This document shows positions 72-34,353 of a stretch of DNA of 64,000 nucleotides, one piece after another. The notes below the pieces were generated by a model. That model ran no database searches. It saw only the letters and a list, made by a program, of their open reading frames with translations, and was not told where the DNA came from. The first letter of the stretch is position 1. Each line of letters starts with the position of its first letter. Where the stretch lies: positions 15,210,446 through 15,274,445 of the forward strand of contig OZ014411.1 in NCBI GenBank assembly GCA_963965975.1, read 5' to 3'. The translations under genes and the position numbers were made by a program. Source of the stretch: Xestospongia bergquistia (Eukaryota; Porifera; Demospongiae; Haplosclerida; Petrosiidae).

Positions 72-170
72 TGCATTAACAATGTCTAAATTAGCCCTTT
101 TCATAATTAAAATCAAAACAACATCCTTGTATCCCTTCATTGCAGCTAACAAAACCGGTGTAGATCCCAC
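72..170 (-). CDS. Ankyrin-repeat exon, type B, second copy
   Basis: This 99-bp exon (33 codons, minus strand) starts with V-G-S-T-P-V-L-L-A-A-M-K-G-Y and ends with A-N-L-D-I-V-N-A. It keeps the ankyrin pattern of a TP-hairpin, an LLAA helix, a GY turn, a hydrophobic second helix and an ANLDI end. The acceptor is CT on the plus strand at 171-172 and the donor reads GTAAGTG. It is the paralogue of the exon at 26955-27053, and the similarity continues into the flanking intron (positions 1-590 against about 26880-27430). The helix 2 segment V-V-L-I-L-I-M-K has lost the usual glycine before A-N (R-A-N instead of G-A-N), a mild decay. On its 5' side it is separated from the previous exon by a 25-kb satellite-filled intron. 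Confidence 0.85.
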
Positions 171-590
171 CTAAATATATAATAATAACCAAATAATTGT
201 CAGCAATAAAATACATTGTAAGTCTGCACAATACTACAGTAACATTTTTTTATATGTATTCTATTTGTACACTAGTAGTATATACAACATATACAACATT
301 ACAAAGTATTACATTGATACATAATTTGATACTATCATGCTATGAAGACACCATACAAATTAGAGGTGATAACTTAATCATAAACATGAAAACAAAAAAA
401 ATATTGCTTTTAAAAAATGACAACATTGTATTTAAGAAATTAGACATTATTATATTAACACCAATTATACTGTAAAGGACATTATGATGACAAGAATTTA
501 CAGCAACACAAATGTATGGAAAAGCAATTGAGTTAACAAAATGACTACAATGCATTGAATAAATTTAGAAATAAAATTAAATTATATCAC
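171..590. other. Unique intron flank left of the satellite
   Basis: This is AT-rich intron sequence homologous to 27054-27430 in the paralogous intron (same order of short blocks, such as the AGTAACATT and CATTACAAAGTAT stretches). It contains the first worn satellite-like unit near 470-600. I see no open coding segment; two short frames here end at random and match no family. Confidence 0.7.
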
Positions 591-1388
591 ACCTACCATC
601 TATTGTTAAAGGACACATTCAGATGACAAGTTATTATAGAGAAAACAATTTGTAAGCAAAAAAGATTTAAATAAATAAAATCACAAAACATACATTGAAT
701 AAAATTAACATTATATTGCATAATTTCAAACCTACCTCCTATTGTAATATTAAAGAAAACATCCAGATGACAAGGTATTGTACCATAAACAATAATGAAA
801 GCCAAAAAGATTAAAATAGATACAATCACAACAATCCATTGAATAAAATTAAAATTATATTACATTATGTCACATCTAACACCTATTATAGCGTAAAAGG
901 ACACATCCAGATGACAAGTTATTGTACCATAAACAATAATGAAAGCCAAAATGATTACAATAGATACAATCACAACAATGCATTAAATAAAATTAAAATT
1001 ATATTACATTATATCAAACCTACCCGCTATTGTAACATTAAAGGAAACATCCAGATGACAAGTTATTGTACCATAAACAATAATGAAAGCCAAAAAGATT
1101 AAAATAGATATAATCAGAACAATGTATAGAATAAAATTAAAATCAAATTACATTAGTGTCAAACCTACCCGCTATTGTAATGTTAAAGGAAACATCCAGA
1201 TGACAAGTTATTGTACCATAAACAATAATGAAAGCAAAAATTATTAAAATGGATACAATCACAACAATGCATTGAATAAAATTAAAATTATATTACATTA
1301 TGTCACACTTACCTCCTATTATAATTTTAAAGGAAACATCCAGATGACAAGTTATTGTACCATAAACGATAATGAAAGCAAAAAATGA

Positions 1389-4300
1389 TTAAAATAGATA
1401 CAATCACAACAATGTATTGAATAAAATTAAAATTATATTACATTATGTCAAACCTACCCACTATTGTAATGTTAAAGAAAACATCCAGATGACAAGTTAT
1501 TGTACCATAAACGAGAATGAAAGCCAAAAAGATTAAAATAGATACAATCACAACAATGTATTGAATAAAATTAAAATTATATTACATTATGTCAAACCTA
1601 CCCACTATTGTAATGTTAAAGAAAACATCCAGATGACAAGTTATTGTACCATAAACGAGAATGAAAGCCAAAAAGATTAAAATAGATACAATCACAACAA
1701 TGTATTGAATAAAATTAAAATTATATTACATTATGTTAAACATACCCACTATTTTAATGTTAAAGGAAACATCCAGATGACAAGTTATTGTATCATAAAT
1801 AATAATGAAAGCCAAAATGATTAAAATAGATACAATCACAACAATGCATTGAATAAGATTAAAATTATATTATATTATATCAAACCTACCAACTTTTGTA
1901 ACGTTAAAGGAAACATCCAGATGACAAGTTGTTGTACCATAAACGAGAATAAAAGCAAAAAATGATTAAAATACATACAACCACAACAATGCATTGAATA
2001 ACATTAAAATTATATTATATATTATGTCAAACCTACCTCCTATTGTTATGTTAATGGCAATATCCAGATGACAAGTTATTGTACCATAAACAATAGTAAA
2101 AGCCAAATAGATCAAAATAGATATAATCAGAAAAATGCATTGAATAAAATTAAAATTATATTACATTTTGTCATACTTACATCAAACTTATATTAGATTA
2201 CAGAGTTAAGGACACATCCAGATGACAAGTTATTTCAGCACCATAAACAATAATGAAAGCCAAAAAGATTAAAATAGATACAATCACAACAATCCATTGA
2301 ATAAAATTAAAATTATATTACATTATGTCACATCTACCTCAAACTTATGTCAGATTATAGAGTTAAGCACACATCCAGATGACAAGTTATTGTATCATAA
2401 AAAACAATGAAAGCCAAAAAGATAAAAATAGATACAATCACAATAATGCATTGAATAAAATTAAAATTATATCACATTATGTTAAGCTTACCCCCTATTT
2501 TAATGTTAAAGGAAACATCCAAATGATAAGTTATTGTACCATAAACAATAATGAAAGCCAAAAAGATTAAAATGGATACAATTACAACAATGTATTGAAT
2601 TAAGATTAATATATTATTACATTATGTCACACCTACCTTCTATTATAGTGTAAAAGGACACATTTAGATGACAAGGTATTGTACCATAAACAATAATGAA
2701 AGAGAAAAAGATTAAAGTAGATATAATCACAACAATGTATTGAATAAAATAAAATTTATATTATATCATGTCAAACCTACCGACTATTGTAATGTTAAAG
2801 GAAACATCCAGATGACAAGTTATTGTACCATAAACAATAATGAAAGCAAAAAAGATTAAAATAGATACAATCACAACAATGTATTGAATAAGATTAAAAT
2901 TATATTACATTATGTCAAACCTACCTCCTATTGTAATGTTAAAGGAAACATCCAGATGACAAGTTATTGTACCATAAACAATAATGAAAGCAAAAAAAGA
3001 TTAAAATAGATACAATCACAACAATGTATTGAATAAAATTAATATATTATTACATTATGTCACACCTACCTTCTATTATAGTGTAAAAGGACACATTTAG
3101 ATGACAAGTTATTGTACCATAAACAATAATGAAAGCAAAAAAGATTAAAATAGATACAATCACAACAATGTATTGAATAAAATTAAAATTATATTACATT
3201 ATGTCAAACCTACCCACTATTGTAATGTTAAAGAAAACATCCAGATGACAAGTTATTGTACCATAAACGAGAATGAAAGCCAAAAAGATTAAAATAGATA
3301 CAATCACAACAATGTATTGAATAAAATTAAAATTATATTACATTATGTCAAACCTACCCACTATTGTAATGTTAAAGAAAACATCCAGATGACAAGTTAT
3401 TGTACCATAAACGAGAATGAAAGCCAAAAAGATTAAAATAGATACAATCACAACAATGTATTGAATAAAATTAAAATTATATTACATTATGTTAAACATA
3501 CCCACTATTTTAATGTTAAAGGAAACATCCAGATGACAAGTTATTGTATCATAAATAATAATGAAAGCCAAAATGATTAAAATAGATACAATCACAACAA
3601 TGCATTGAATAAGATTAAAATTATATTATATTATATCAAACCTACCAACTTTTGTAACGTTAAAGGAAACATCCAGATGACAAGTTGTTGTACCATAAAC
3701 GAGAATAAAAGCAAAAAATGATTAAAATACATACAACCACAACAATGCATTGAATAACATTAAAATTATATTATATATTATGTCAAACCTACCTCCTATT
3801 GTTATGTTAATGGCAATATCCAGATGACAAGTTATTGTACCATAAACAATAGTAAAAGCCAAATAGATCAAAATAGATATAATCAGAAAAATGCATTGAA
3901 TAAAATTAAAATTATATTACATTTTGTCATACTTACATCAAACTTATATTAGATTACAGAGTTAAGGACACATCCAGATGACAAGTTATTTCAGCACCAT
4001 AAACAATAATGAAAGCCAAAAAGATTAAAATAGATACAATCACAACAATCCATTGAATAAAATTAAAATTATATTACATTATGTCACATCTACCTCAAAC
4101 TTATGTCAGATTATAGAGTTAAGCACACATCCAGATGACAAGTTATTGTATCATAAAAAACAATGAAAGCCAAAAAGATAAAAATAGATACAATCACAAT
4201 AATGCATTGAATAAAATTAAAATTATATCACATTATGTTAAGCTTACCCCCTATTTTAATGTTAAAGGAAACATCCAAATGATAAGTTATTGTACCATAA

Positions 4301-4900
4301 ACAATAATGAAAGCCAAAAAGATTAAAATGGATACAATTACAACAATGTATTGAATTAAGATTAATATATTATTACATTATGTCACACCTACCTTCTATT
4401 ATAGTGTAAAAGGACACATTTAGATGACAAGGTATTGTACCATAAACAATAATGAAAGAGAAAAAGATTAAAGTAGATATAATCACAACAATGTATTGAA
4501 TAAAATAAAATTTATATTATATCATGTCAAACCTACCGACTATTGTAATGTTAAAGGAAACATCCAGATGACAAGTTATTGTACCATAAACAATAATGAA
4601 AGCAAAAAAGATTAAAATAGATACAATCACAACAATGTATTGAATAAGATTAAAATTATATTACATTATGTCAAACCTACCTCCTATTGTAATGTTAAAG
4701 GAAACATCCAGATGACAAGTTATTGTACCATAAACAATAATGAAAGCAAAAAAAGATTAAAATAGATACAATCACAACAATGTATTGAATAAAATTAATA
4801 TATTATTACATTATGTCACACCTACCTTCTATTATAGTGTAAAAGGACACATTTAGATGACAAGTTATTGTACCATAAACAATAATGAAAGCAAAAAAGA
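1389..4900. repeat. Higher-order satellite repeat: 1,756-bp block in tandem duplicate
   Basis: The sequence at about 1389-3144 is repeated nearly unchanged at about 3145-4900. Matching points lie exactly 1,756 bp apart, for example 1482/3238, 2379/4135 and the GGTTAATGGCAATATCC-type variant unit. One block holds twelve monomers, including the standard, CACACC and ATCAAAC types in the same order. A third, partial copy (about 7670-8610, offset 6,012 from the first) shows the block has been copied at a distance too. Confidence 0.9.
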
Positions 4901-7900
4901 TTAAAATAGATATAATCACAACAATGTATTGAATAAAATTAAAATTATATTACATTATGTCAAACCTACCCACTATTGTAATGTTAAAGAAAACATCCAG
5001 ATGACAAGTTATTGTACCATAAACGAGAATGAAAGCCAAAAAGATTAAAATAGATACAATCACAACAATGTATTGAATAAGATTAAAATTATATTATATT
5101 ATATCAAACCTACCAACTTTTGTAACGTTAAAGGAAACATCCAGATGACAAGTTGTTGTACCATAAACGAGAATAAAAGCCAAAAAGATTAAAATAGATA
5201 CAATCACAACAATGCATTGAATAAAATTAAAATTATATTACATTATGTCACATCTACCTCAAACTTATGTTAGATTATAGAGTTAAGCACATCCAGATGA
5301 CAAGTTATTGTATCATAAAAAACAATGAAAGCCAAAAAGATAAAAATAGATACAATCACAATAATTCATTGAATAAAATTAAAATTATATCACATTTTGT
5401 TAAGCTTACCCCCTATTTTAATGTTAAAGTAAACATCCAGATGATAAGTTATTGTACCATAAACAATAATGAAAGTCAAAAAGATTAAAATAGATATAAT
5501 CACAAAGATGTATTGAATAAAATTAATATATTATTACATTATGTCACACCTACCTTCTATTATAGTGTAAAAGGACACATTTAGATGACAAGGTATTGTA
5601 GCATAAACAATAATGAAAGCAAAAAGATTAAAATAGATATAATCACAACAATGTATTGAATAAAATTAAAATTATATTACATTATGTTAAACCTACCGAC
5701 TATTGTAATGTTAAAGGAAACATCCAGATGACATGTTATTGTACCATAAACAATAATGAAAGTCAAAAAGATTAAAATAGATATAATCACAAAGATGTAT
5801 TGAATAAAATTAATATATTATTACATTATGTCACACCTACCTTCTATTATAGTGTAAAAGGACACATTTAGATGACAAGTTATTGTACCATAAACAATAA
5901 TGAAAGAGAAAAAGATTAAAATAGATATAATCAGAACAATTCATTAAATAAAATTAAAATTACATTACATCATCTTAAACGTACCAGCTAATGTAATGTT
6001 AAAGGAAACATCCAGATGACAAGTTATTGTACAATAAACAATAATGAAAGCAAGAAAGATTAAAATAGATACAATCACAACAATGCATTGAATAAGTTTA
6101 AAAATATATTACATTATGTCAAACCTACTGGCTATTGTAATGTTAAAGGAAACATCCCGATGACAAGTTATTGTACCATAAACAATAATGAAAGCAAAAA
6201 AAGATTAAAATAGATACAATCACAACAATGCATTGAATAAGATTAAAATTATATTACATTATGTCAAACCTACCGGCTATTGTATTGTTAAAGGAAACAT
6301 CCAGATGACAAGTTATTGTACCATAAACAATCATGAAAGCAAAAAAAGATTAAAATAGATACAATCACAACAATGCATTGAATAAGATTAAAATTATATT
6401 ATATTATGTCAAACCTACCGACTTTTGTAATGTTAAAGGAAACATCCAGATGACAAGTTATTGTACCATAAACAATAATGAAAGCAGAAAAGATTAAAAT
6501 AAATACAATTACAACAACAGATTGAATAAAATTAAAATTACATTACATTAGGTAAAACATACCTCCTATTGTAATGTTAAAGGAAACATCCAGATGACAA
6601 GTTATTGTACCATAAACAATAATGTAAGCCAATGAGATTAAAATAGATATAATTAGAAAAAATGCATTGAATAAAATTAAAATTATATTACATTTTGTCA
6701 TACTTACATCAAACTTATATTAGATTACAGAGTTAAGGACACATCCAGATGACAAGTTATTGCACCATAAACAATAATGAAAGCCAAAAAGATTAAAATA
6801 GATACAATCACAACAATCCATTGAATATAATTAAAATTATATTACATTATGTCACATTTACCTCAAACTTATGTCAGATTATAGAGTTAAGCACACATCC
6901 AGATGACAAGTTATTGTATCATAAAAAACAATGAAAGCCAAAAAGATAAAAATAGATACAATCATAATAATGCATTGAATAAAATTAAAATTATATCACA
7001 TTATGTTAAGCTTACCCCCTATTTTAATGTTAAAGGAAACATCCAGATGACAAGTTATTGTACCATAAACAATAATGAAAGCCAAAAAGATTAAAATGGA
7101 TACAATCACAACAATGTATTGAATTAAGATTAATATATTATTACATTATGTCACACCTACCTTCTATTATAGTGTAAAAGGACACATTTAGATGACATGG
7201 TATTGTACCATAAACAATAATAAAAGCAAAAAAGATTAAAATAGATATAATCACAACAATGCATTGAATAAAATCAAAGTTACATTACATTATGTCAAAC
7301 CTACCGACTATTGTAATGTTAAACGAAACATCCAGATGACAAAGTATTATATCATAAAATAATAATGAAAGCCAAAAAGATTAAAATAGATACAATCACG
7401 ACAATGTATTGAATAAAATTAAAATTATATTACATTATGTCACACTTACGTCATGCTTATATTAGAGTATAGAGTCAAAGAAACATCCAGATGATAAGTT
7501 ATTGTACCATAAATGATAATGAAAGCAAAAAATGATTAAAATACATACAATCACAAGAATGCATTCAATAAAATTAAAATTATATTACATTATGTCACAC
7601 TTACGTCATGCTTATATTAGAGTATAGAGTGAAAGAAACATCCAGATGACAATTATTGTACCATAAACGAGAATGAAAGCCAAAAAGATTAAAATAGATA
7701 CAATCACAACAATGTATTGAATAAAATTAAAATTATATTACATTATGTTAAACATACCCACTATTTTAATGTTAAAGGAAACATCCAGATGACAAGTTAT
7801 TGTATCATAAATAATAATGAAAGCCAAAATGATTAAAATAGATACAATCACAACAATGCATTGAATAAGATTAAAATTATATTATATTATATCAAACCTA

Positions 7901-10900
7901 CCAACTTTTGTAACGTTAAAGGAAACATCCAGATGACAAGTTGTTGTACCATAAACAAGAATAAAAGCAAAAAATGATTAAAATACATACAACCACAACA
8001 ATGCATTGAATAACATTAAAATTATATTATATATTATGTCAAACCTACCTCCTATTGTTATGTTAATGGCAATATCCAGATGACAAGTTATTGTACCATA
8101 AACAATAATAAAAGCCAAAGAGATTAAAATAGATATAATCAGAAAAATGCATTGAATAAAATTAAAATTATATTACATTTTGTCATACTTACATCAAACT
8201 TATATTAGATTACAGAGTTAAGGACACATCCAGATGACAAGTTATTGCAGCACCATAAACAATAATGAAAGCCAAAAAGATTAAAATAGATACAATCACA
8301 ACAATCCATTGAATATAATTAAAATTATATTACATTATGTCACATCTACCTCAAACTTATGTCAGATTATAGAGTTAAGCACACATCCAGATGACAAGTT
8401 ATTGTATCATAAAAAACAATGAAAGCCAAAAAGATAAAAATAGATACAATCACAATAATGCATTGAATAAAATTAAAATTATATCACATTATGTTAAGCT
8501 TACCCCCTATTTTAATGTTAAAGGAAACATCCAGATGATAAGTTATTGTACCATAAACAATAATGAAAGCCAAAAAGATTAAAATGGATACAATTACAAC
8601 AATGTATTGAATTAAGATTAAAGTTATATTACATTATGTTAAACCTACCGACTATTGTAATGTTAAAGGAAACATCCAGATGACATGTTATTGTACCATA
8701 AACAATAATGAAAGTCAAAAAGATTAAAATAGATATAATCAGAACAATGCATTGAATAAAATTAAAGTTACATTACATTATGTCAAACCTACCTCCTATT
8801 GTAATGTTAAAGGAAACATCCAGATGACATGTTATTGTACCATAAACAATAATGAAAGCAAAAAAAGATTAAAATAGATACAATCACAAAAATGTATTGA
8901 ATAAAATTAATATATTATTACATTATGTCACACCTACCTTCTATTATAGTGTAAAAGGACACATTTAGATGACAAGTTATTGTACCATAAACAATAATGA
9001 AAGAGAAAAAGATTAAAGTAGATATAATCAAAACAATGTATTGAATAAAATAAAATTTATATTATATTATGTCAAACCTACCGACTATTGTAATGTTAAA
9101 GGAAACATCCAGATGACAAGTTATTGTAGCATAAACAATAATGAAAGCAAAAAAGATTAAAATAGATACAATCACAACAATGTATTGAATAAGATTAAAA
9201 TTATATTACATTATGTCAAACCTACCTCCTATTGTAATGTTAAAGGAAACATCCAGATGACAAGTTATTGTACCATAAACAATAATGAAAGCAAAAAAAG
9301 ATTAAAATAGATACAATCACAAAAATGTATTGAATAAAATTAATATATTATTACATTATGTCACACCTACCTTCTATTATAGTGTAAAAGGACACATTTA
9401 GATGACAAGTTATTGTACCATAAACAATAATGAAAGAGAAAAAGATTAAAGTAGATATAATCACAACAATGTATTGAATAAAATAAAATTTATATTATAT
9501 CATGTCAAACCTACCGACTATTGTAATGTTAAAGGAAACATCCAGATGACAAGTTATTGTACCATAAACAATAATGAAAGCAAAAAAGATTAAAATAGAT
9601 ACAATCACAACAATGTATTGAATAAGATTAAAATTATATTACATTATGTCAAACCTACCTCCTATTGTAATGTTGAAGGAAACATCCAGATGACAAGTTA
9701 TTGTACCATAAACAATAATGAAAGCAAAAAAAGATTAAAATAGATACAATCACAAAAATGTATTGAATAAAATTAATATATTATTACATTATGTAACACC
9801 TACCTTCTATTATAGTGTAAAAGGACACATTTAGATGACAAGTTATTGTACCATAAACAATAATGAAAGCAAAAAAGATTAAAATAGATATAATCACAAC
9901 AATGTATTGAATAAAATTAAAATTATATTACATTATGTCAAACCTACCGACTATTATAATATTAAAGGAAACATCCAGATGACAAGTTATTGTACCATAA
10001 ACAATATGGAAAGCAAAAAGATTAAATAGATACAATCACAAAAATGTATTGAATAAAAATAAAATTATATTACATTATGTCAAACCTACCCACTATTGTA
10101 ATGTTAAAGGCAACATCCAGATGACAAGTTATTGTAACATAAACAATAATAAAAGATTAAAATAGATACAATCACAACAATGTATTGAATAAAATTAAAG
10201 TTACATTACATTATGTCAAACCTACCATCTATTGTAATGTTAAAGGACATCCAGATGACAAATTATTGTACCATAAACAATAATGAAAGTCAAAAAGATT
10301 AAAATAGATACAATCACAACAATGCAATGAATAAGATTAAAATTATATTGCATTATGTCAAACCTACCCGCTATTGTAATGTTAAAGGAAACATCCAGAT
10401 GACAAGTTATTGTACCATAAACAATAATAAAAGATTAAAATAGATACAATCACAACAATGTATTGAATAAAATTAAAGTTACATTACATAATGTCAAACC
10501 TACCATCTATTGTAATGTTAAAGGACATACAGATGACAAATTATTGTACCATAAACAATAATGAAAGACAAAAGAAGTAAAATAGATACAAACACAACAA
10601 TGCAATGAATAAGATTAAAATTATATTGCATTATGTCAAACCTACCCGCTATTGTAATGTTAAAGGAAACATCCAGATGACAAGTTATTGTACCATTAAC
10701 AAAAAGTGAAAGCGAAAAAAATTAATGTAGATACAATCACAACAATACATTGAATAAGATTAAAATTATATTACATTATGTCAAACCTACTGGCTATTGT
10801 AATGTTAAACGAAACATCCAAATGACAAGTTATTGTATCATAAACAATAATGAAATTCAAAAAGATTAAAATAGATACAATCACAACAATGCAATGAATA

Positions 10901-13900
10901 AGATTAAAATTATATTGCATTATGTCAAACCTACTCGCTATTGTAATGTTAAAGGAAACATCCAGATGACAAGTTATTGTACCATAAACAATAATGAAAG
11001 AAAAAAAGAGTAAAATAGATATAATCACAACAATGCAATGAATAAGATTAAAATTATATTGCATTATGTCAAACCTACCATCTATTGTAATGTTAAAGGA
11101 AACATCCAGATGACAAGTTATTGTACCATTAACAAAAAGTGAAAGCGAAAAAAATTAATATAGATACAATCACAAAAATACATTGAATAAGATTAAATTA
11201 TATTACATTATGTCAAACCTACCGGCTATTGTAATGTTAAAGGAAACATCCAGATGACAAGTTATTGTATCATAAATGATAATAAAAGCAAAAAAAAGAT
11301 TAAAATAGATACAATCACAACAATGTATTGAATAAGATTAAAATTATATTACATTATGTCAAACCTACCGACTTTTGTAATGTTAAAGGAAACATCCAGA
11401 TGACAAGTTATTGTACCATAAACAATAATGAAAGCCAAAGAGATTAAAATAGATATAATTAGAAAAATGCATTGAGTAAATTTAAAATTATATTACATTT
11501 TGTCATACTTAAATCAAATGTATATTAGATTACAGAGTTAAAAACACATCCAGATGACAAGTTATTGCACCGTAAACAATAATAAAAGTCAAAAAGATTA
11601 AAATAGATACAGTTACAACAACGTATTGAATAGAATTAAAATTATATAACATTATTTCATATCTAACACCTATTATAGTGTAAAAGGAAACATCCAGATG
11701 ACAAGTTATTGTACCATAAACAATAATGAAAGCAAAAAAGATTAAAATAAATACAATTACAACAACAGATTGAATAAAATTAAAATTACATTACATTAGG
11801 TAAAACGTACCTCCTATTGTAATGTTAAAGGAAACATCCAGATGACAAGTTATTTTACCATAAACAATAATGTAAGCCAAAGAGATTAAAATAGATATAA
11901 TTAGAAAAATGCATTGAATAAAATTAAAATTATATTACATTTTGTCATACTTACATCAAACTTATATTAGATTACAGAGTTAAGGACACAGCCAGATGAC
12001 ATGTTATTGCACCATAGACAATAATGAAAGCCAAAAAGATTAAAATAGATACAATCACAACAATCCATTGAATATAATTAAAATTATATTACATTATGTC
12101 ACATTTACCTCAAACTTATATTAGATTATAGAGTTAAGCAAACATCCAGATGACAAGTTATTGTATCATAAAAAACAATGAAAGCCAAAAAGATAAAAAT
12201 AGATACAATCATAATAATGCATTGAATAAAATTAAAGTTACATTACATTATGTCAAACCTACCGACTATTGTAATGTTAAAGGAAACATCCAGATGACAA
12301 GTTATTGTACCATAAACAATAATGAAAGTCAAAAATATTAAAATAGATACAATTACAACAATGTATTGAATTAAGATTAAAATTATATTACATTATGTCA
12401 AACCTACCGACTATTGTAATGTTAAAGGAACATCCACATGACAAGTTATTGTACCATAAACAATAATGAAAGTCAAAAAGATTAAAATAGATATAATCAG
12501 AACAATGCATTGAATAAAATTAAAGTTACATTACATTATGTCAAACCTACCGACTATTGTAATGTTAAAGGAAACATCCAGATGACAAGTTATTGTACCA
12601 TAAACAATAATGAAAGTCAAAAATATTAAAATAGATACAATCACAAAAATGTATTGAATAAAATTAAAATATTATTACATTATGTCACACCTACCTTCTA
12701 TTATAGTGTAAAAGGACACATTTAGATGACAAGTTATTGTACCATAAACAATAATGAAAGAGAAAAAGATTAAAATAGATATAATCAGAACAATGCATTT
12801 AATAAAATTAAAATTACATTACATTATGTTAAACGTACCAGCTTTGTAATGTTAAAGGAAACATCCAGATGACAAGTTATTGCACCAGTAACAAAAAGTG
12901 AAAGTGAAAAAGATTTAAATAGATACAATCACAACAATGCATTGTATAAGTTTAAAATTATATTACATTATGTCAAACCTACCGGCTATTGTAATGTTAA
13001 ATGAAACATCCAGATGACAAGTTATTGTATCATAAATAATAATGAAAGCAAAAATGATTAAAATAGATAAAATCACAACAATGCATTGAATAAGATTAAA
13101 GTTATATTACATTTTGTCATACTTACATCAAACTTATATTAGATTACAGAGTTAAGGACACATCCAGATGACAAGTTATTTCAGCACCATAAACAATAAT
13201 GAAAGCCAAAAAGATTAAAATAGATACAATCACAACAATCCATTGAATAAAATTAAATTTATATTACATTATGTCACATTTACCTCAAACTTATGTCAGA
13301 TTATAGAGTTAAGCACACATCCAGATGACAAGTTATTGTATCATAAAAAACAATGAAAGCCAAATAGATAAAAATAGATACAATCACAATAATGCATTGA
13401 ATAAAATTAAAATTATATCACATTTTGTTAAGCTTACCCCCTATTTTAATGTTAAAGTAAACATCCAGATGATAAGTTATTGTACCATAAACAATAATGA
13501 AAGCCAAAAAGATTAAAATGGATACAATTACAACAATGTATTGAATTAAGATTAAAGTTATATTACATTATGTTAAACCTATCGACTATTGTAATGTTAA
13601 AGGAAACATCCAGATGACATGTTATTGTACCATAAACAATAATGAAAGTCAAAAAGATTAAAATAGATATAATCAGAACAATGCATTGAATAAAATTAAA
13701 GTTACATTACATTATGTCAAACCTACCTCCTATTGTAATGTTAAAGGAAACATCCAGATGACATGTTATTGTACCATAAAAAATAATGAAAGCAAAAAAA
13801 GATTAAAATAGATACAATCACAAAAATGTATTGAATAAAATTAATATATTATTACATTATGTCACACCTACCTTCTATTATAGTGTAAAAGGACACATTT

Positions 13901-16900
13901 AGATGACAAGTTATTGTACCATAAACAATAATGAAAGAGAAAAAGATTAAAGTAGATATAATCACAACAATGTATTGAATAAAATAAAATTTATATTATA
14001 TCATGTCAAACCTACCGACTATTGTAATGTTAAAGGAAACATCCAGATGACAAGTTATTGTACCATAAACAATAATGAAAGCAAAAAAGATTAAAATAGA
14101 TACAATCACAACAATGTATTGAATAAGATTAAAATTATATTACATTATGTCAAACCTACCTCCTATTGTAATGTTAAAGGAAACATCCAGAAGACAAGTT
14201 ATTGTACCATAAACAATAATTAAAGCAAAAAAAGATTAAAATAGATACAATCACAAAAATGTATTGAATAAAATTAATATATTATTACATTATGTCACAC
14301 CTACCTTCTATTATAGTGTAAAAGGACACATTTAGATGACAAGTTATTGTACCATAAACAATAATGAAAGAGAAAAAGATTAAAGTAGATATAATCACAA
14401 CAATGTATTGAATAAAATAAAATTTATATTATTTTATGTCAACCTACCGACTATTGTAATGTTAAAGGAAACATCCAGATGACATGTTATTGTACCATAA
14501 ACAATAATGAAAGCAAAAAAAGATTAAAATAGATACAATCACAAAAATGTATTGAATAAAATTAATATATTATTACATTATGTCACACCTACCTTCTATT
14601 ATAGTGTAAAAGGACACATTTAGATGACAAGTTATTGTACCATAAACAATAATGAAAGAGAAAAAGATTAAAGTAGATATAATCACAACAATGTATTGAA
14701 TAAAATAAAATTTATATTATATCATGTCAAACCTACCGACTATTGTAATGTTAAAGGAAACATCCAGATGACAAGTTATTGTACCATAAACAATAATGAA
14801 AGCCAAAGAGATTAAAATAGATATAATTAGAAAAATGCATTGAGTAAATTTAAAATTCTATTACATTTTGTCATACTTAAATCAAATGTATATTAGATTA
14901 CAGAGTTAAAAACACATCCAGATGACAAGTTATTGCACCGTAAACAATAATTAAAGTCAAAAAGATTAAAATAGATACAGTTACAACAACATATTGAATA
15001 GAATTAAAATTATATAACATTATTTCATATCTAACACCTATTATAGTGTAAAAGGAAACATCCAGATGACAAGTTATTGTACCATTAACAAAAAGTGAAA
15101 GCGAAAAAAATTAATGTAGATACAATCACAACAATACATTGAATAAAATTAAAATTATATTACATTATGTCAAACCTACCGACTATTGTAATGTTAAACG
15201 AAACATCCAGATGACAAGTTATTGTATCATAAACGATAATGAAAGCAAAAAAAGATTAAAATAGATACAATCACAACAATGCATTGAATAGATTGAAATT
15301 ATATTACATTATGTCAAACCTACCTCCTATTGTAATGTTAAAGGAAACATCCAGATGACAAGTTATTGTACCATAAACAATAATGAAAGCAAAAAAGATT
15401 AAAATAAATACAACCACAAGAACAGATTGAATAAAATTAAAATTACATTACATTATGTTAAACGTACTTCCTATTGTAATGTTAAAGGAAACATCCAGAT
15501 GACAAGTTATTGTACCATAAACAATAATGAAAGCCAAAGAGATTAAAATAGATATAATTAGAAAAATGCATTGAGTAAATTTAAAATTATATTACATTTT
15601 GTCATACTTAAATCAAATGTATATTAGATTACAGAGTTAAAAACACATCCAGATGACAAGTTATTGCACCGTAAACAATAATTAAAGTCAAAAAGATTAA
15701 AATAGATACAGTTACAACAACGTATTGAATAGAATTAAAATTATATAACATTATTTCATATCTAACACCTATTATAGTGTAAAAGGAAACATCCAGATGA
15801 CAAGTTATTGTACCATAAACAATAATGAAAGCAAAAAGATTAAAATAAATACAATCACAACAACAGATTGAATAAAATTAAAATTACATTACATTAGGTA
15901 AAACGTACCTCCTATTGTAATGTCAAAGGAAACATTCAGATGACAAGTTATTGTACCATAAACAATAATGTAAGCCAAAGAGATTAAAATAGATATAATT
16001 AGAAAAATGCATTGAATAAAATTAAAATTATATTACATTTTGTCATACTTACATCAAACTTATATTAGATTACAGAGTTAAGGACACATCCAGATGACAA
16101 GTTATTGCAGCACCATAAACAATAATGAAAGCCAAAAAGATTAAAATAGATACAATCACAACAATCCATTGAATAAAGTTAAAATTATATTACAATTTGT
16201 CATACTTACATCAAACTTATATAAGATTACAGAGTTAAGCACACATTCAGATGACAAGTTATTGTATCATAAAAAACAATGAAAGCCAAAAAGATAAAAA
16301 TAGATACAATCACAATAATTCATTGAATAAAATTAAAATTATATCACATTTTGTTAAGCTTACCCCCTATTGTAATGTTAAAGGAAACATCCAGATGACA
16401 AATTATTGTACCATAAACAACAATGAAAGTCAAAAAGATTAAAATAGATACAATCACAAAAATGTATTGAATAAAATTAAAATATTATTACATTATGTCA
16501 CACCTACCTTCTATTATAGTGTAAAAGGACACATTTAGATGACAAGTTATTGTACCATAAACAATTATGAAAGCAAAAAAAGATTAAAATAGATATAATC
16601 AGAACAATTCATTTAATAAAATTAAAATTACATTACATCATGTTGAACGTACCAGCTATTGTAATGTTAAAGGAAACATCCAGATGACAAGTTATTGTAC
16701 CATAAACAATAATGAAAGCAAGAAAGATTAAAATAGATACAATCACAACAATGCATTGAATAAGTTTAAAAATATATTACATTATGTCAAACCTACCGGC
16801 TATTGTAATGTTAAAGGCAACATCCAGATGACAAGTTATTGTACCATAAACAATAATGAAAGCAAAAAAGATTAAAATAGGTACAATCACAACAATGCAT

Positions 16901-19900
16901 TGAATAAGATTAAAATTATATTACATTATGTCAAACCTACCCGCTATTGTAATGTTAAAGGAAACATCCAGATGACAAGTTATTGTACAATAAACAATAA
17001 TGAAAGCAAAAAAAGATTAAAATAGATACAATCACAACAATGCATTGAATAAGATTAAAATTATATTATATTATGTCAAACCTACCGACTTTTGTAATGT
17101 TAAACGAAACATCCAGATGACAAGTTATTGTACAATAAACAATAATGAAAGCAAAAAAGAGTAAAATAAATACAATTACAACAACAGATTGAATAAAATT
17201 AAAATTACATTACATTAGGTAAAACGTACCTCCTATTGTAATGTTAAAGGAAACATCCAGATGACAAGTTATTTTACCATAAACAATAATGTAAGCCAAA
17301 GAGTTTAAAATAGATATAATTAGAAAAATGCATTGAATAAAATTAAAATTATATTACATTTTGTCATACTTACATCAAACTTATATTAGATTACAGAGTT
17401 AAGGACACAGCCAGATGACAAGTTATTGCACCATAAACAATAATGAAAGCCAAAAAGATTAAAATAGATACAATCACAACAATCCATTGAATATAATTAA
17501 AATTATATTACATTATGTCACATTTACCTCAAACTTATGTCAGATTATAGAGTTAAGCACACATCCAGATGACAAGTTATTGTATCATAAAAAACAATGA
17601 AAGCCAAAAAGATAAAAATAGATACAATCATAATAATGCATTGAATAAAATTAAAATTATATCACATTATGTTAAGCTTACCCCCTATTTTAATGTTAAA
17701 GGAAACATCCAGATGACAAGTTATTGTATCATAAACAATAATGAAAGCCAAAAAGATTAAAATGGATACAATCACAACAATGTATTGAATTAAGATTAAA
17801 ATTATATTACATTATGTCAAACCTACCAACTATTGTAATGTTAAAGGAACATCCAGATGACAAGTTATTGTACCATAAACAATAATGAAAGTCAAAAAGA
17901 TTAAAATAGATATAATCAGAACAATGCATTGAATAAAATTAAAGTTACATTACATTATGTCAAACCTACCGACTATTGTAATGTTAAAGGAAACATCCAG
18001 ATGACAAGTTATTGTACCATAAACAATAATGAAAGTCAAAAATATTAAAATAGATACAATCACAAAAATGTATTGAATAAAATTAATATATTATTACATT
18101 ATGTCACACCTACCTTCTATTATAGTGTAAAACGACACATTTAGATGACAAGTTATTGTACCATAAACAATAATGAAAGAGAAAAAGATTAAAATAGATA
18201 TAATCAGAACAATGTATTTAATAAAATTAAAATTACATTACATTATGTTAAACGTACCAGCTATTGTAATGTTAAAGGAAACATCCAGATGAAAAGTTAT
18301 TGCAGCAGTAACAAAAAGTGAAAGTGAAAAAGATTTAAATAGATACAATCACAACAATGCATTGTATAAGTTTAAAATTATATTACATTATGTCAAACCT
18401 ACCGGCTATTGTAATGTTAAAGGCAATATCCAAATGACAAGTTATTGTATCATAAACAATAATGAAAGTCAAAAAGATTAAAATAGTTACATTTACAACA
18501 ACATATTGAATAAATTTAAAATTATATAACATTATGTCATATCTAACACCTATTATAGTGTAAAAGGAAACATCCAGATGACAAATTATTTTATCATAAA
18601 CAATAATGAAAGTCAAAAAGATTCAAATAGATACACTCACAACAATGTATTGAATTAAGATTAAAGTTATATTACATTATGTTAAACGTACCAGCTATTG
18701 TAATGTTAAAGGAAACATCCAGATGACAAGTTATTGCACCATTAACAAAAAGTGAAAGCGAAAAAGATTAAAATAGATACAATCACAACAATGCATTGAA
18801 TAATATTAAAATTGTATTACATTATGTCAAACCTACCAGCTATTGTAATGTTAAAGGCAATATCGAGATGACAAGTTATTGTACCATAAACAATAATGAA
18901 AGCAAAAAAGATTAAAACAGGTACAATGACAACAACGTATTGAATAAAATTAAAATTATATTACAATATGTCACATCTAACCCCTATTATAGTGTAAAAG
19001 GAAACATTCAGATGACAAGTTATTGTACCATAAAGAATAATGAAAGCCAAAAAGATTAAAATAGATATAATCCGAACAATGCATTCAATAAAATTAAAAT
19101 TATATTACATTATGTCAAACCTACCAGCTATTGTAATGTTAATGGAAACATCCAGATGACAAGTTATTGTACCATAAACAATAATGAAAGCAAAAAAGAT
19201 TAAAATAGATACAATCACAACAATGCATTGAATAAGTTTAAAATTATATTACATTATGTCAAACCTACCGGCTATTGTAATGTTAAAGGAAACATCCAGA
19301 TGACAAGTTATTATACCATAAACAATAATGAAAGCAAAAAAAGATTAAAATAGATACAATCACAACAATGCATTGAATAAGATTAAAATTTTATTACATT
19401 ATGTCAAACCTACCGGCTATTGTAATGTTAAAAGGAACATCCAGATGACAAGTTATTGTACCATAAACAATAATGAAAGCAAAAAAAGATTAAAATAGAT
19501 ACAATCACAACAATGTATTGAATAAGATTAAAATTATATTACATTATGTCAAACCTACCGGCTATTGTAATGTTAAAGGAAACATCCAGATGACAAGTCA
19601 TTGTACCATAAACAATAATGAAAGCAAAAAAAGATTAAAATAGATACAATCACAACAATGCATTGAATAAGTTTAAAATTATATTCCATTATGTCAAACC
19701 TACCAGCTATTGTAATGTTAATGGAAACATCCAGATGACAAGTTATTGTACCATAAACAATAAGGAAAGCAAAAAATGATTAAAATAGACACAATCACAA
19801 CGATGCATTGAATAAGTTTAAAATAATATTACATTATGTCAAACCTACCGGCTATTGTAATGTTAAAGGAAACATCCAGATGACAAGTTATTATACCATA

Positions 19901-20229
19901 AACAATAATGAAAGCAAAAAAAGATTAAAATAGATACAATCACAACAATGCATTGAATAAGTTTAAAAATATATTACATTATGTCAAACCTACTGGCTAT
20001 TGTAATGTTAAAGGAAACATCCCGATGACAAGTTATTGTACCATAAACAATAATGAAAGCAAAAAAAGATTAAAATAGATACAATCACAACAATGCATTG
20101 AATAAGATTAAAATTATATTACATTATGTCAAACCTACCGGCTATTGTATTGTTAAAGGAAACATCCAGATGACAAGTTATTGTACCATAAACAATCATG
20201 AAAGCAAAAAAAGATTAAAATAGATACAA

Positions 20230-20809
20230 TCACAACAATGCATTGAATAAGATTAAAATTATATTATATTATGTCAAACCTACCGACTTTTGTAATGTTA
20301 AAGGAAACATCCAGATGACAAGTTATTGTACCATAAACAATAATGAAAGCAAAAAATGATTAAAATAGATACAATCACAACAATGCATTGAATAAGTTTG
20401 AAATTATATTACATTATGTCAAACCTACCGGCTATTGTAATGTTAAAGGCAACATCCAGATGATAAGTTATTGTACCATAAACAATAATGAAAGCAAAAA
20501 AAGATTAAAATAGATACAATCACAACAATGCATTGAATAAGATTAAAATTATATTATATTATGTCAAACCTACCGACTTTTGTAATGTTAAAGGAAACAT
20601 CCAGATGACAAGTTATTGTACCATAAACAATAATGAAAGCAAAAAATGATTAAAATAGATACAATCACAACAATGCATTGAATAAGTTTGAAATTATATT
20701 ACATTATGTCAAACCTACCGGCTATTGTAATGTTAAAGGCAACATCCAGATGATAAGTTATTGTACCATAAACAATAATGAAAGCAAAAAAAGATTAAAA
20801 TAGATACAA
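20230..20809. repeat. Two-monomer (290 bp) duplication in the satellite
   Basis: Positions 20231-20519 recur from 20521 on with an exact 290-bp offset, including shared private variants (ATATTATATTATG and AAGTTTGAAATTATATTACA). This is a recent local amplification of two monomers. Confidence 0.8.
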
Positions 20810-22359
20810 TCACAACAATGCATTGAGTAAGATTAAAATTATATTACATTATGTCAAACCTACCGGCTATTGTAATGTTAAAGGAAACATCCAGATGACA
20901 AATTATTGTACAATAAACAATAATGAAAGCAAAAAAAGATTAAAATAGATACAATCACAACAATGCATTGAATAAGATTGAAATTATATTATATTATGTA
21001 AAACCTACCGACTTTTGTAATGTTAAAGGAAATATCCAGATGACAAGTTATTGTATCATAAACAATAATGAAAGCAAAAAAGATTAAAATAAATACAATC
21101 ACAACAAAAGATTGAATAAAATTAAAATTACATTACGTTAGGTTAAACGTACCTCCTATTGTAATGTTAAAGGAAACATCCAGATGACAAGTTATTGTAC
21201 CATAATCAATAATGAAAGCCAAAGAGATTAAAATAGATATAATTAGAACAATGCATTGAATAAAATTAAAATTATATTACATTATGTTAAACGTACCAGC
21301 TATTGTAATGTTAAAGGAAACATCCAGATGACAAGTTATTGCACCATTAAGAAAAAGTGAAAGTGAAAAAGATTTAAATAGATACAATCACAACAATGCA
21401 TTGTATAAGTTTAAAATTATATTACATTATGTCAAACTTACCGGCTATTGTAATGTTAAAGGCAACATCCAAATGACAAGTTATTGCATCATAAACAATA
21501 ATGAAAGTCAAAAAGATTAAAATAGTTACCATTACAACATATTGAATAAAATTAAAATTATATAACATTATTTCATATCTAACACCTATTATAGTGTAAA
21601 AGGAAACATCCAGATGACAGGTTATTGTACCATAAACAATAATGAAAGACATAAAGATTAAAATGGATACAATCACAACAATGTATTGAATTAAGATTAA
21701 AGTTATATTACATTATGTTAAACGTACCAGCTATTGTAATGTTAAAGGAAACATCCAGATGACAAGTTATTGTACCATTAACAAAAAGCGAAAGCGAAAA
21801 AGATTAAAATAGATACAATGACAACAATGCATTGAATAATATTAAAATTGTATTACATTATGTCAAACCTACCAGCTATTGTAATATTAAAGGCAATATC
21901 CAGATGACAAGTTATTGTACCATAAACAATAATGAAAGAAAAAAAGATTAAAATAGTTACAATGACAACAACGTATTGAATAAAATTAAAATTATATTAC
22001 ATTATGTCACATCTAACACCTATTATAGTGTAAAAGGAAACATTCAGATGACAAGTTATTGTACCATAAACAATAATGAAAGCCAAAAAGATTAAAATAA
22101 ATATAATCAGAACAATGCATGTAATAAAATTAAAGTTTTATTACATTATATAAAACCTACCGTCTATTGTAATGTTAAAGGAACATCCAGATGACAAGTT
22201 ATTGTATCATAAACAATAATGAAAGTCAAAAAGATTAAAATAGATACAGTCGCAACAATCCATTGAATAAAATTAAATTATATTACATTATGTCAGACCT
22301 ACCGACTATTGTAATGTTAATGGAAACATCCAGATGACAAGTTATTGTACCATAAACAA

Positions 22360-23220
22360 TAATGAAAGACAAAAAATTAAAATAGATATAATCAGAACAA
22401 TGCATTGAATAAGATTAAAGTTATATTACATTATGTCAAACTTACCTCCTATTGTAATGTTAAAGGAACATCCAGATGGCATGTTATTGTATCATAAACA
22501 ATAATGAAAGTCAAAAAGATTAAAATAGATACAGTCACAACAATCCATTGAATAAAATTAAAATTATATTACATTATGTCAAACCTACCGACTATTGTAA
22601 TGTTAAAGGAAACATCCAGGTGACAAGTTATTGCACCATAAACAAATAATGGAAGCAAGAATAAGTAAAATAGATACAATCAAAACAATGCATAGAATAA
22701 AATTAAAATTATATTACATTATGTCAAACCTACCAGCTATTATAATTTTAATGGAAACATCAGATGACAAGTCATTGTACCATAAACAATAATGAAAGAC
22801 AAAAAATTAAAATAGATATAATCAGAACAATGCATTGAATAAGATTAAAGTTATATTACATTATGTCAAACTTACCTCCTATTGTAATGTTAAAGGAACA
22901 TCCAGATGGCATGTTATTGTATCATAAACAATAATGAAAGTCAAAAAGATTAAAATAGATACAGTCACAACAATCCATTGAATAAAATTAAAATTATATT
23001 ACATTATGTCAAACCTACCGACTATTGTAATGTTAAAGGAAACATCCAGGTGACAAGTTATTGCACCATAAACAAATAATGGAAGCAAGAATAAGTAAAA
23101 TAGATACAATCAAAACAATGCATAGAATAAAATTAAAATTATATTACATTATGTCAAACCTACCAGCTATTATAATTTTAATGGAAACATCAGATGACAA
23201 GTCATTGTACCATAAACAAT
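22360..23220. repeat. Three-monomer (430 bp) duplication in the satellite
   Basis: The block from about 22360 to 22789 is repeated at about 22790-23219, offset 430 bp. The copies share private changes, such as GAAAGACAAAAAATTAA, the one-base-short AAACATCAGATGAC anchor, CCAGGTGACAAG and AAACAAATAATGGAAGC. The near identity suggests a recent unequal exchange. Confidence 0.88.
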
Positions 23221-24429
23221 AATGAAAGCAAAAAAGATTAAAATAGATACAACCACAACAATGTATTGAATAAAATTAATATTACATTATATTATGTCAA
23301 ACCTACCCGCTATTGTAATGTGAAAGGAAACATTGGATGACAAGTTATTTGTACCATAAACAGTAATGAAAGTCAAAAGATTAAAATAGATACAATCACC
23401 ACAATCCATTGAATAAAATTAAAATTATATTACATTATGTCAAACATACCGACTATTGTAATGTTAATGGAAACATCCAGATGACAAGTTATTGTACCAT
23501 AAACAATAATGAAAGCCAAAATGATTAAAATAGATACAATCACAACAATGCATTAAATAAAATTATAATTATATTACATTATGTCAAACCTACCCGCTAT
23601 TGTAATGTTAAAGGAAACATCCAGATGACAAGTTATTGTACCATAAACAATAATGAAAGCCAAAAAGATTAAAATAGATATAATCACAAAAATGTATTGA
23701 ATAAAATTAAAATATTATTACATTATGTCACATCTACCTTCTATTATAGTTTAAAAGGACACATTTAGATGATAAGTTATAACAGTGAAAACAATTTGAA
23801 AGGAAAAAGATCATAATAAATTAAGTCACAACAATGAGTTGAATAAATTTAAAATTATATAAAGTTATATCACACCTAACTCCTATTATAGTGTTAAAGA
23901 CACATTTAGGTGACAATATATGTGAAAAATCAGATAGTAAACAAAATGACATTGACCAAAACAAGAAAGTATATTGCAATATAGAACATTTGCTTCTTAT
24001 TATATTGTATATGGCCAGTTCAAATGACAAGATCTTACAGTACCATAAATTTGGAAAGTAAAAATTAATGATAACAATACAATAAATAAATTAATAATTG
24101 TATTACATTATATTACACCAATTTTATTGTAAAGGACACATTCAGAAGATAAGCAATTATAGCACCATGAAATTGAATACAAAATATAAATGAATAGGAA
24201 AATGACCTTAATGCATCAAATAAAATTATTACATCATATTACATTATATCATACTTACCAACTATTGTCGTAAAGATCACATTCAGATTATAAGATTTTA
24301 CAATGACAAACATGGAAACCAAGAGTAAACAAAATGATAACAATACAATAAATAAAATTAGATTTTACATTACATTATATGACATTTACTACCTATTGTA
24401 TTGTAAAGGACACATTCAGATGATAAGTA

Positions 24430-24760
24430 ATAATTATATCTGTGATGTAAGGTAGACCCTTGTGATTAGTATTAAGAGTATATCAGAACAACCATTAGAA
24501 AAACAACAATAAGAACTATAACAACACTCAATCTACTAGACACATATGGCAATGAGTATTTATACAAAAATCAAAAGATGAGAAGGGTTCTAGAATGTTC
24601 TAGTAACTAATTTAAGAACATGTGGTGCAGCCCTAGAACGTGATTAAGTACAGATAAAATGAGAGTTTACTATAATTAACAAGGGCTATAGACATGATAA
24701 ATAAACATTCACATAATAAGTCTATAGTACATTACAATATCAAAATAAAGTTGAATACAA
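24430..24760. mobile_element. Possible small insertion (MITE-like) in the old satellite edge
   Basis: About 300 bp interrupt the worn repeat units. Near the two ends, GTAGACCCTTGTGATTAGT and, on the opposite strand, CTATAGCCCTTGTTAATTAT form an imperfect inverted pair. No coding frame is present. Ends and target duplication cannot be fixed by eye, so the element class is unknown. Confidence 0.35.
24588..24600. promoter_or_regulatory. Perfect three-part heat-shock-element motif
   Basis: TTCTAGAATGTTC holds three alternating pentamers (gTTCt, aGAAt, gTTCt), the consensus for a trimer of heat shock factor. It lies in the insertion at the array border, inside the ankyrin-gene intron. Whether it is used is unknown; one match of this length can arise by chance in 64 kb. 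Confidence 0.35.
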
Positions 24761-25302
24761 AATACAGTAGAGTAGAGAAAATGACATTAATGCATCAAAT
24801 AACATTAATAATTATGTTAAATTAGATTGCATTTACAACCTATTGGATTGTAAAGGACACATTCAGATAATAAGTAATTATATCACCACAATGTTGGATA
24901 TAAAATATAATAGAGTAGAGGAAATGACATTAATGCATTGAATACAGTTAAAATCATATTGTGTTATATCACATTTACTGGTATTATCTTGTGAAGGACA
25001 CATTCAGATGATGAGTTATTATAGCATATTTAGAGACAAAAAAGGTAATCAAAATGACAGTATTACATACAGTTAAAAGATTTACAAAGATGATAGGTTT
25101 ATATTCACTATGTTTTATAATGTTTTTTTAAATCTGAAGAAGAGTATCTAGTGTTTTGGTCTACTACTGCATTCTTGTTAATGTAGTGAAAGTAAATATA
25201 TATTAGACTTGTATCACTATAATATATCTATTTAATATTTGTTTACACATGTAGCTTAAAGTCTAGAGTAAAGAATGACTTCATTTTCATGATCTAAATC
25301 AC

Positions 25303-25401
25303 CTTAGTAGCAACATTGATATCTGCTCCATTGTTAACAAATACTTCAACTATATCTGTATGTCCTTTATAACTTGCATAATGAAGAGCTGTCCATCCTT
25401 C
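25303..25401 (-). CDS. Ankyrin-repeat exon, type A, second copy
   Basis: This is a 99-bp minus-strand exon with the core G-W-T-A-L-H-Y-A-S-Y-K-G-H-T-D-I-V-E-V-F, followed by V-N-N-G-A-D-I-N-V-A-T-K. That is an almost canonical ankyrin repeat (TALHYAS hairpin and helix 1, KGH turn, DIVE helix 2, NGADIN loop). The acceptor is ATAATAG on the minus strand and the donor is AAG followed by GTGATT, a slightly weak site. It is the paralogue of the exon at 28549-28647. The intron on its 3' side (transcript sense) is the 25-kb satellite intron, so splicing to the next exon must cross it. Confidence 0.88.
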
Positions 25402-26954: not shown

Positions 26955-27053
26955 TGTATTAACAATGTCTAGATTAGCTCCTTTATTGGTTAAAACCGAA
27001 ACAACATCTTTGTGTCCTTTTTTTGCTGCTAACATAACTGGAGAAAATCTCTC
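26955..27053 (-). CDS. Ankyrin-repeat exon, type B, first copy
   Basis: This 99-bp minus-strand exon translates to a repeat beginning E-R-F-S-P-V-M-L-A-A-K-K-G-H-K-D-V-V and ending N-K-G-A-N-L-D-I-V-N-T. The acceptor is TTTAG, the donor GTAAGTG. It keeps the ankyrin turn G-H and the loop G-A-N, but has S-P-V-M in place of T-P-L-H. It is the paralogue of exon 72-170, with which it shares the splice sites and several hundred bp of flanking intron. It sits third in the visible gene, between two type A exons. Confidence 0.86.
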
Positions 27054-28548
27054 CTAAATATATCATAATAACCAAATTAATTTGAGCAATAGCATACATC
27101 ATTATATTTGCATACCATCAATAGTAACATTCCTTTGTATATGTTACATGAATACACTAGTAACATTACACACACATACAACATTACAAAGTATCAATTA
27201 TATCAACTACTCTCATGCTAAACAAATTGCTCTCAATAACTCAAAAATGTTATAAATACAAATAACACTTGTAAGTACATAAGCACACATACCCATTACA
27301 TCACAATAGATATATTTTTGTTCAATTATTAGCATTACATTGTAAAAAACATTATAACCAACAAAAATACATTTAAAAAATTATCAGCTATTATTTATAA
27401 AGGACACATTCAGATATGAGAAGTTATTACATCAACACAAAAGAGAAAAAAACAGTAGAGCAAGCAAAGTGAAAAGAATGCATAAAATAAGATTAAAAAT
27501 TACATTATGTTACATATTACACACACATACACACCCTATAATATTATAGAGGACACATTCAGGTGACAAGGTATTATAGTACCACAATTGTGGAATAAAA
27601 CACACTAAACAAAATGCCAACATGCATTAAAAGTAATTAAAATTTATATTACATTATATCACACTTATCAACTATTGTATTATAATGAACAAATTCAGAT
27701 GGGAGGTTTTTATGGCATCACAATTGTTGAAACAGAGTGCACAAAATGATGAAAGATGCATTGAATGAAATTAGAATTATATATTTGTATAGTTACTAAC
27801 ATTTATCTTTGAAGAAGTCTTAGTATAGTTACTATCATTAATTCTATGAAGGTCAAATAGCTTTAATGCAATGTAATCAATGTTATCAATCCTATTAATA
27901 ATTCTATTTGTCCATTCTATATAATTATTAATCCATTAATAATTGGGACTAGTAAATAAGAAAAATGCATAAAAATATTAGGATTTAAAATTAGTCTATT
28001 CTATTAACCAAACATTCCAGCACATGACAAAAAATGAGTAGTCCTTTCTGTCACTTTACTTATTAATAACTGTCATAATTACTTCATTATATTTGTCATA
28101 CATCTACTATAATAATCAACCTAACTGGTCTGACATTAGATCAAAAAGGTATAGTTCATAAACAGTCTACATATTAAAAACAAATGAGGTCAACTTTTAT
28201 CATGAAATTTGTTAACAATACCAATAAAAATACCAAGTACAGCTGACCAATATACTGGTACTGAGGATTAAATTGTTCAATATCATGTAATTTTAAAATC
28301 CAAAATATTTTTTATTAACCTTTTAATACAAAGCTATTAACCCTTATAGCATGCACAAAATGATGTCATAATTAACACAATTTGTAAAACTAAGCTTAAT
28401 CAATATATCTACTTAATAATAACTTATAAAACAAAAAATAGAAATGTAGGACCTCAATGAAAGATATTTGATAGTCAATAGGAGATAGATACATGTAGTC
28501 ACTATGGCAAACACTGTCCACAATATTGAATTATTGAATCTGAATTAC
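27054..28548. repeat. Paralogous intron with three or four worn satellite-like units
   Basis: The anchor GGACACATTCAG appears at about 27398 and 27550, and a diverged GAACAAATTCAG at about 27690, spaced about 140-150 bp. Connecting sequence resembles the satellite unit (ATTAAAAATTACATTATG and CACTTATCAACTATTGTATTAT forms). The units are not homogenised. The remainder, about 27,800-28,548, is AT-rich intron without a recognisable element. This is the short homologue of the 25-kb intron. Confidence 0.78.
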
Positions 28549-28647
28549 CTTAGTAAGAACATTGACATCAGCTTCATAGTTGAGTAACACATCAACTATG
28601 TCTGTATCTCCCTTATAACTTGCATAATGAAGGGCCGTCCATTTATC
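28549..28647 (-). CDS. Ankyrin-repeat exon, type A, first copy
   Basis: This 99-bp minus-strand exon has the core K-W-T-A-L-H-Y-A-S-Y-K-G-D-T-D-I-V-D-V-L, then L-N-Y-E-A-D-V-N-V-L-T-K. The acceptor is CCACAG, the donor AAG followed by GTAATT. It differs from the second type A copy by about a dozen residues, including loss of the loop glycine (Y-E-A-D for N-G-A-D). It is followed, in transcript order, by the 1.5-kb intron that corresponds to the satellite intron. Confidence 0.88.
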
Positions 28648-34176: not shown

Positions 34177-34353
34177 TGTACAATTTAATGTTAAGAAAGT
34201 TAAAGATTAAAGAATTATAAGTTACAATTCAAGAGCTACTGGACCAAAAGGGACTGAAACAATCTAAATAATGATGAAGTAGTTTAAGGTAAATGATAAG
34301 TAAAGAGTGTACAATTTAATGTTAAGAAAAGTAAGATTAAAGAATTATAAGTT
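34177..34353. repeat. Internal 47-bp direct repeat within the MULE
   Basis: TGTACAATTTAATGTTAAGA followed by a GATTAAAGAATTATAAGTTA block occurs at about 34177-34224 and again at about 34308-34353. The second copy touches the 3' end of the minus-strand gene. It may mark a second rearrangement that produced this short element. Confidence 0.75.

Follow-up and report, generated by a model that had tools for sequence, protein, structure and literature searches.

An intron-borne 144-bp satellite in an ankyrin gene family of Xestospongia bergquistia

The ankyrin gene and its large intron

The 64,000-nucleotide stretch of the Xestospongia bergquistia genome analysed here (C1:15210446-15274445; called the window, with positions counted from its first letter) carries on its minus strand a gene composed of short ankyrin-repeat exons. 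One predicted intron of this gene, between the exons named A2 and B2, is occupied almost throughout by a satellite array of 144-base-pair (bp) units. All exons, exon types and splice junctions given here are predictions from open frames and splice sites. The following features were assigned, with the array delimited by Tandem Repeats Finder (TRF).

72..170, minus strand: ankyrin exon B2, 33 amino acids, phase 0, on the 3' side of the large intron (open frame, AG/GT borders; Pfam Ank match in the joined exons)
171..25302, minus strand: predicted A2-to-B2 intron, 25,132 bp (donor GTGATT after A2, acceptor ATATTTAG before B2)
171..417, minus strand: B-side unique flank of the large intron (sequence comparison)
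540..23899, plus strand: 144-bp satellite array, 160.5 copies (TRF score 31,406, 85% matches)
738..5248, plus strand: recent tandem block duplication, 738-3492 and 2494-5248 (offset 1,756 bp or 12 units, 97.1% identical)
23900..25302, minus strand: A-side flank of the large intron, in which five old units have diverged to 68-75% identity to the array consensus (resembles the A3-to-B3 intron)
25303..25401, minus strand: ankyrin exon A2 (open, phase 0, AG..GT)
26955..27053, minus strand: ankyrin exon B1 (open, phase 0, AG..GT)
27054..28548, minus strand: predicted A1-to-B1 intron, 1,495 bp, with three to four diverged units (profile search)
28549..28647, minus strand: ankyrin exon A1 (open, phase 0, AG..GT)
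28938..29030, minus strand: probable preceding ankyrin exon, 31 amino acids (by eye; peptide included in the Pfam query)

Exons A1, B1, A2 and B2 are each exactly 99 nucleotides (nt) long, open and in phase 0 on the minus strand, and their AG..GT borders confirm the coordinates and lengths (25,132 and 1,495 bp) that the original prediction had given for the two introns. They belong to a chain with at least five exons of type A and five or six of type B. Five joined exons matched ankyrin repeats in Pfam (PF00023, E 1.1e-35). Downstream of the exons, open frames on the same strand contained a ZU5 match (PF00791, 25.4 bits against a cut-off of 21) and, below its cut-off of 22.6, a weak Death match (PF00531, 18.9 bits). 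In the genes read, the family that bears the satellite is described as having at least ankyrin repeats and a putative ZU5 domain, and the window gene is presumably transcribed and spliced. In the genome as a whole, 137 ZU5 matches were found at E <= 1, an indication that the ZU5 gene family is large.

As had been claimed, the array lies inside a predicted intron whose gene has open exons and splice sites on both sides, and the expected content of about 160 units of about 145 bp agrees with the 160.5 copies of 144 bp obtained by TRF and with the 168 units detected by profile search at E <= 1 and likewise at E <= 1e-3. The three or four diverged units foreseen in the A1-to-B1 intron were recovered as well (four at E <= 1, three at E <= 1e-3). 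The large intron holds a long head-to-tail run of non-coding units of one length (~144 bp); this run is the largest of the arrays of this satellite read here, contains no N, is bounded by exons of one gene and was found again in paralogs of that gene. Mean unit identity was 0.855 in the window array and 0.886 and 0.921 inside the two other main arrays, compared with 0.70-0.74 between the three main arrays and the old units found in other introns (arrays were sampled at even spacing, with a maximum of about 40 units each). A self-match of the window array extended over 2,757 columns at 97.1% identity with an offset of 1,756 bp, and 14 units were 99.5% identical to units 12 further along. These multi-unit blocks of 97-99.5% identity support a recent origin of part of the array length.

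Splice-site scores and conservation in 17 old units gave no evidence for a function of the repeat unit, and the window contained no Rfam match to a structured RNA at gathering score. A coding role of the 144-nt (48-codon) unit is not favoured; the array holds one open frame of 127 amino acids, and unit lengths scatter around 144. A conserved functional core was also considered; in the 17 old units the core was just modestly above the unit mean and no constraint is claimed. It is highly improbable that the satellite serves as a recursive-splicing device, in which AG and GT motifs of the units would allow the stepwise removal of the long intron. By eye, many units read in gene sense do contain ATAATAG or ACAATAG with GTAAGT or GTAGGT a few nt further on, and at 52 places of the intron the donor score equals or exceeds that of the weakest real donor, compared with 3, 6 and 8 places in three Markov controls. 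However, not a single place in the 25-kb intron reaches the weakest of the 26 real acceptors, with the Markov controls also at zero and the scores trained on the same 26 exons, and the AG..GT window comprises the least conserved ten columns of the 17 old units (0.66, mean 0.79). Judged by acceptor scores and conservation, a strong conserved acceptor directly before a donor is absent from the units.

The original prediction explained the two introns by a duplication of the two-exon block, by which the A-B intron would exist twice. This was not confirmed: the exons form a multi-exon chain in which A2 is nearest to A5 (87% nt identity vs 81% to A1) and the intron recurs in neighbouring paralogs. 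The nearest exon of B2 is B1 (77%), by a small margin over the next exon (76%). The two introns had further been said to keep homologous borders. On the B side this is correct, with 63% identity over 273 columns (20 shuffles, maximum 55%), but the A side reached 46% over 142 columns, which is within the shuffled values (mean 49%, maximum 57%). The A side of the large intron instead resembles the A3-to-B3 intron (73% over 203 columns, shuffled maximum 55%).

Corresponding introns in tandem paralogs

The region read comprised 304 kb, made up of the window, 40 kb before it and 200 kb after it. A profile search for ankyrin exons returned 36 matches, of which 35 lie on the minus strand and one, a weak match (E 0.042), on the plus strand, and these exons form three gene-like chains in which A-type and B-type exons alternate. 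The segments between the genes are also duplicated, in long blocks of 87-97% identity. Exon coordinates indicate at least eight tandem paralogs reaching C1:15.83 Mb, with the exons nearest to A1 located on C1 at 15238994, 15322832, 15420669, 15517589, 15615998, 15703496, 15790005 and 15828032 (85-100% identical to the query). Among the matches listed, a ZU5 match lies beside seven of the eight counted paralogs and none is listed near 15.77 Mb; the match at 15304765, belonging to paralog 2, is under the cut-off. In each of the three genes read, a selection of nine exons (891 nt) has open frames, and ratios of nonsynonymous to synonymous substitution rates (dN/dS) of 0.54-0.64 hint at weak purifying selection on them. 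Paralog 3 seems to have a damaged fifth B exon, which matches over 57 nt only and has no GT donor.

In paralog 2, the intron corresponding to the large intron of the window gene (25,132 bp, 168 units) measures 5,708 bp and holds 37 units; that of paralog 3 measures 14,127 bp and holds 96. Mean unit identity between the window array and those of paralogs 2 and 3 was 0.866 and 0.880, respectively, within a between-array range of 0.866-0.902. The last 480 nt of the intron (window 171-650, including the terminal old unit) are 95.0% identical between window and paralog 2, 94.3% between window and paralog 3 and 95.0% between paralogs 2 and 3, and three other introns compared between the paralogs are 92-97% identical. 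The three terminal units on the B side are 91-98% identical between paralogs vs an average of 87-90% between arrays. Collinearity of the inner units between window and paralog 2 was such that 10 of 200 shuffles reached the observed score. Further arrays of the homogenised subfamily of the window are situated amid more paralog exons at C1:15.49-15.83 Mb. Because paralogs 2 and 3 carry the same homogenised subfamily together with B-side flanks of 94-95% identity, the founding of the array would pre-date the split of the paralogs, and the array would have been turning over since.

These findings bear directly on the proposal that the satellite was born in one intron, namely that it arose and expanded after an A-B block duplication and left the 1.5-kb intron as its unexpanded twin. 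The great difference in size between the two introns, the recent block duplications in the large array, the homologous B-side borders and the proximity of B2 to B1 speak for such a birth. It is nevertheless very unlikely, as paralogs 2 and 3 have the same subfamily and flanks in their corresponding introns, old units are present in other A-to-B introns and one partial unit at C1:13.2 Mb, and the A-side borders of the two introns are not homologous. Growth of the array after the block duplication is compatible with the data but says nothing about when the array was founded.

Paralogs 2 and 3 have a chimeric large intron, of which the first 170 nt are 89% and 87% identical, respectively, to the A1-to-B1 intron of the window gene vs 42% to the A2-to-B2 intron, while its last 480 nt are 95% and 94% identical to the A2-to-B2 intron. 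The adjoining exons follow the same pattern, with the 5' exon 92.9% identical to A1 vs 81.8% to A2 and the 3' exon 91.9% identical to B2 vs 76.8-80.8% to B1. The breakpoint into the array is identical in the two paralogs. The simplest reading of these sequences is a single in-frame loss of B1 and A2, and with them of two ankyrin repeats, in the common ancestor of paralogs 2 and 3. Judged from coordinates and identities alone, an A2-like exon is located 2.6-3.2 kb from A1 in four of the eight paralogs (the window gene and those at 15.51, 15.70 and 15.79 Mb), and for the other four none is found among the matches listed. Another array-bearing intron of paralog 2 (101075-102509) contains a stretch like the B-side flank of the main intron (81% over 379-381 columns), which suggests an exchange from intron to intron inside one gene.

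Intron class and orientation of the repeat

In the 304 kb, all 336 unit matches obtained with the profile at E <= 1e-3 fall into A-to-B introns and share one orientation on the strand of the gene. Units were present in seven of 13 A-to-B introns but in none of ten B-to-A introns and none of three B-to-B introns, and they were found nowhere else in the region. The A3-to-B3 introns hold weak partial units alone, two in each.

Genome-wide searches covered 146.5 Mb in 21 contigs and employed a 23-nt core of the unit with up to two mismatches. They returned 1,601 matches (1,023 forward, 578 reverse) vs 0 and 0 for the reversed pattern. The homogenised variant of the core gave 528 matches, all of them forward, 282 of which are inside the 304 kb read. 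Outside the cluster, 99 listed core places were compared with listed A and B exons within 6 kb; the exon set was without some exons on C5, C8, C1:17.55 and 20.6-20.9 Mb, none of them within 6 kb of a listed place. As the core places fall in about 20 stretches of 20 kb, they are not independent of each other. Among the matches listed, 63 of the 99 places have an exon within 6 kb, and all 63 are on the strand opposite to the nearest exon. The listed exon downstream in gene sense is of type B in 56 of 58 places and of type A in two, and places with a listed exon on both sides have listed A before and B after in 12 of 49 cases. One such intron (C1:13201890-13202650) was read; it resembles an A-to-B intron and carries one partial unit.

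A selfish or mobile satellite, spread for example via circular DNA and merely landing in these introns, would be in line with the homogenised units in more than one intron per gene, as seen in the second arrays of paralogs 2 and 3. If landing were random, both orientations would be expected, and the single orientation of the 336 matches in the cluster and of the 63 listed places outside it therefore counts against mobility. Moreover, the second array of paralog 2 is accompanied by a stretch of intron flank. Mobility of this kind is thus considered unlikely.

Several further groups of unit cores were observed. At C1:13240751-13241606, seven cores are spaced by 140-143 bp between listed B exons at 13238734 and 13244175, and five of them carry the variant TTCAAATGAC, unlike that of the window; the group seems to stem from a local expansion of its own, distinct from that in the window. 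Two more groups, at C7:2343248-2346181 and 2455616-2458400, show in part spacings of 141 and 191 bp and have no ankyrin exon within 6 kb among the matches listed. A separate tandem repeat of the ATGTACATGTACATC type is located at window 57532-58823 (period ~27, 47.7 copies, 64% matches). Other features near the gene include, on the minus strand at window 34345-34797, an open frame of 150 amino acids with a FLYWCH zinc-finger match below threshold (22.1 bits, cut-off 23.6). On the plus strand at C1:15180446-15190445, an open frame of a neighbouring gene has teneurin- and Jagged-type EGF matches, and an open frame on the minus strand at about C1:15189385-15190017 looks by eye like a retroelement integrase region.

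Proposed origin and turnover of the satellite

The repeat is very probably an old intron-borne satellite that has been inherited with the A-to-B introns of a large dispersed ankyrin gene family and whose copy number has been turning over. Some observations weigh against this explanation. The inner units of the remaining two paralog pairs are not collinear beyond shuffled order (101 and 119 of 200 shuffles reach the score), so that a whole-array collinear orthology was not found for two of three pairs and gene conversion after the paralog split could account for part of the array sharing. Three of at least eight paralogs were read, the remainder being known from match coordinates. Of the 99 places outside the cluster, 36 (including those on C2, C6 and both C7 arrays) have no exon within 6 kb among the matches listed, and a looser BLAST search also picked up three matches of 29-31 bp that lie outside introns, two being on the other strand; these three were taken as chance. 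Recombination from repeat to repeat was rejected as the cause of the two-exon deletion, since one break lies in unique sequence of the A1-to-B1 intron.

Starting from the observed location, orientation, sharing by paralogs, chimeric intron and recent block duplications, the following mechanism and order of events can be proposed. The satellite would have been founded in an ancestral A-to-B intron and then copied along with the exons in duplications of blocks and of whole genes. Locally, arrays would grow and shrink by unequal exchange or slippage of multi-unit blocks, and exchange among A-to-B introns would carry the homogenised subfamily and pieces of flank from intron to intron. Because every A or B exon is a 99-nt unit in phase 0, breaks within the introns could remove or add whole ankyrin repeats in frame; paralogs 2 and 3 apparently descend from a gene that underwent such a change. 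A more tentative and rather doubtful idea is that the intron satellite acts as a built-in rearrangement tract, through which introns are swapped between paralogs and blocks of two ankyrin repeats are added or lost in frame; the repeat number and order of these (possibly immune-type) proteins would then evolve by way of the satellite.

Ordinary satellite turnover proceeds by unequal exchange and concerted evolution, and the differences in array length, the recent multi-unit blocks and the old units at the edges conform to it. Unlike in ordinary turnover, the arrays are here tied, where tested, to a single class of introns in a gene family and have one orientation. The chimeric introns and the flank-like transfer within tandem paralogs resemble interlocus gene conversion, but the shared element is in this case a satellite-bearing intron. 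The nearest published case found is that of the giant satellite-filled introns of the Drosophila Y-linked fertility genes kl-3 and kl-5, in which tandem non-coding repeats likewise make up nearly the whole intron of a protein-coding gene, predicted as such in the sponge (PMC6508621). Compared with these, the sponge intron has 25,132 bp rather than megabases and a 144-bp unit rather than simple repeats, and its gene is a member of a multicopy family in which several introns bear arrays (seven at E <= 1e-3 in the 304 kb). Among titles and abstract openings, with partial coverage of the literature, no description of such a case was found.

Satellites in introns have usually been reported as single cases. 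Here, a single genome offers many related introns in which one repeat can be traced, with anything between one decayed unit and 168 units and with flanks that can be dated; seven introns in the 304 kb and one more at C1:13.2 Mb bear it, and others are indicated by coordinates. This provides a natural series for measuring the founding of a satellite, its homogenisation and its exchange between introns, and the same series could show whether satellites help to remodel repeat-protein genes.

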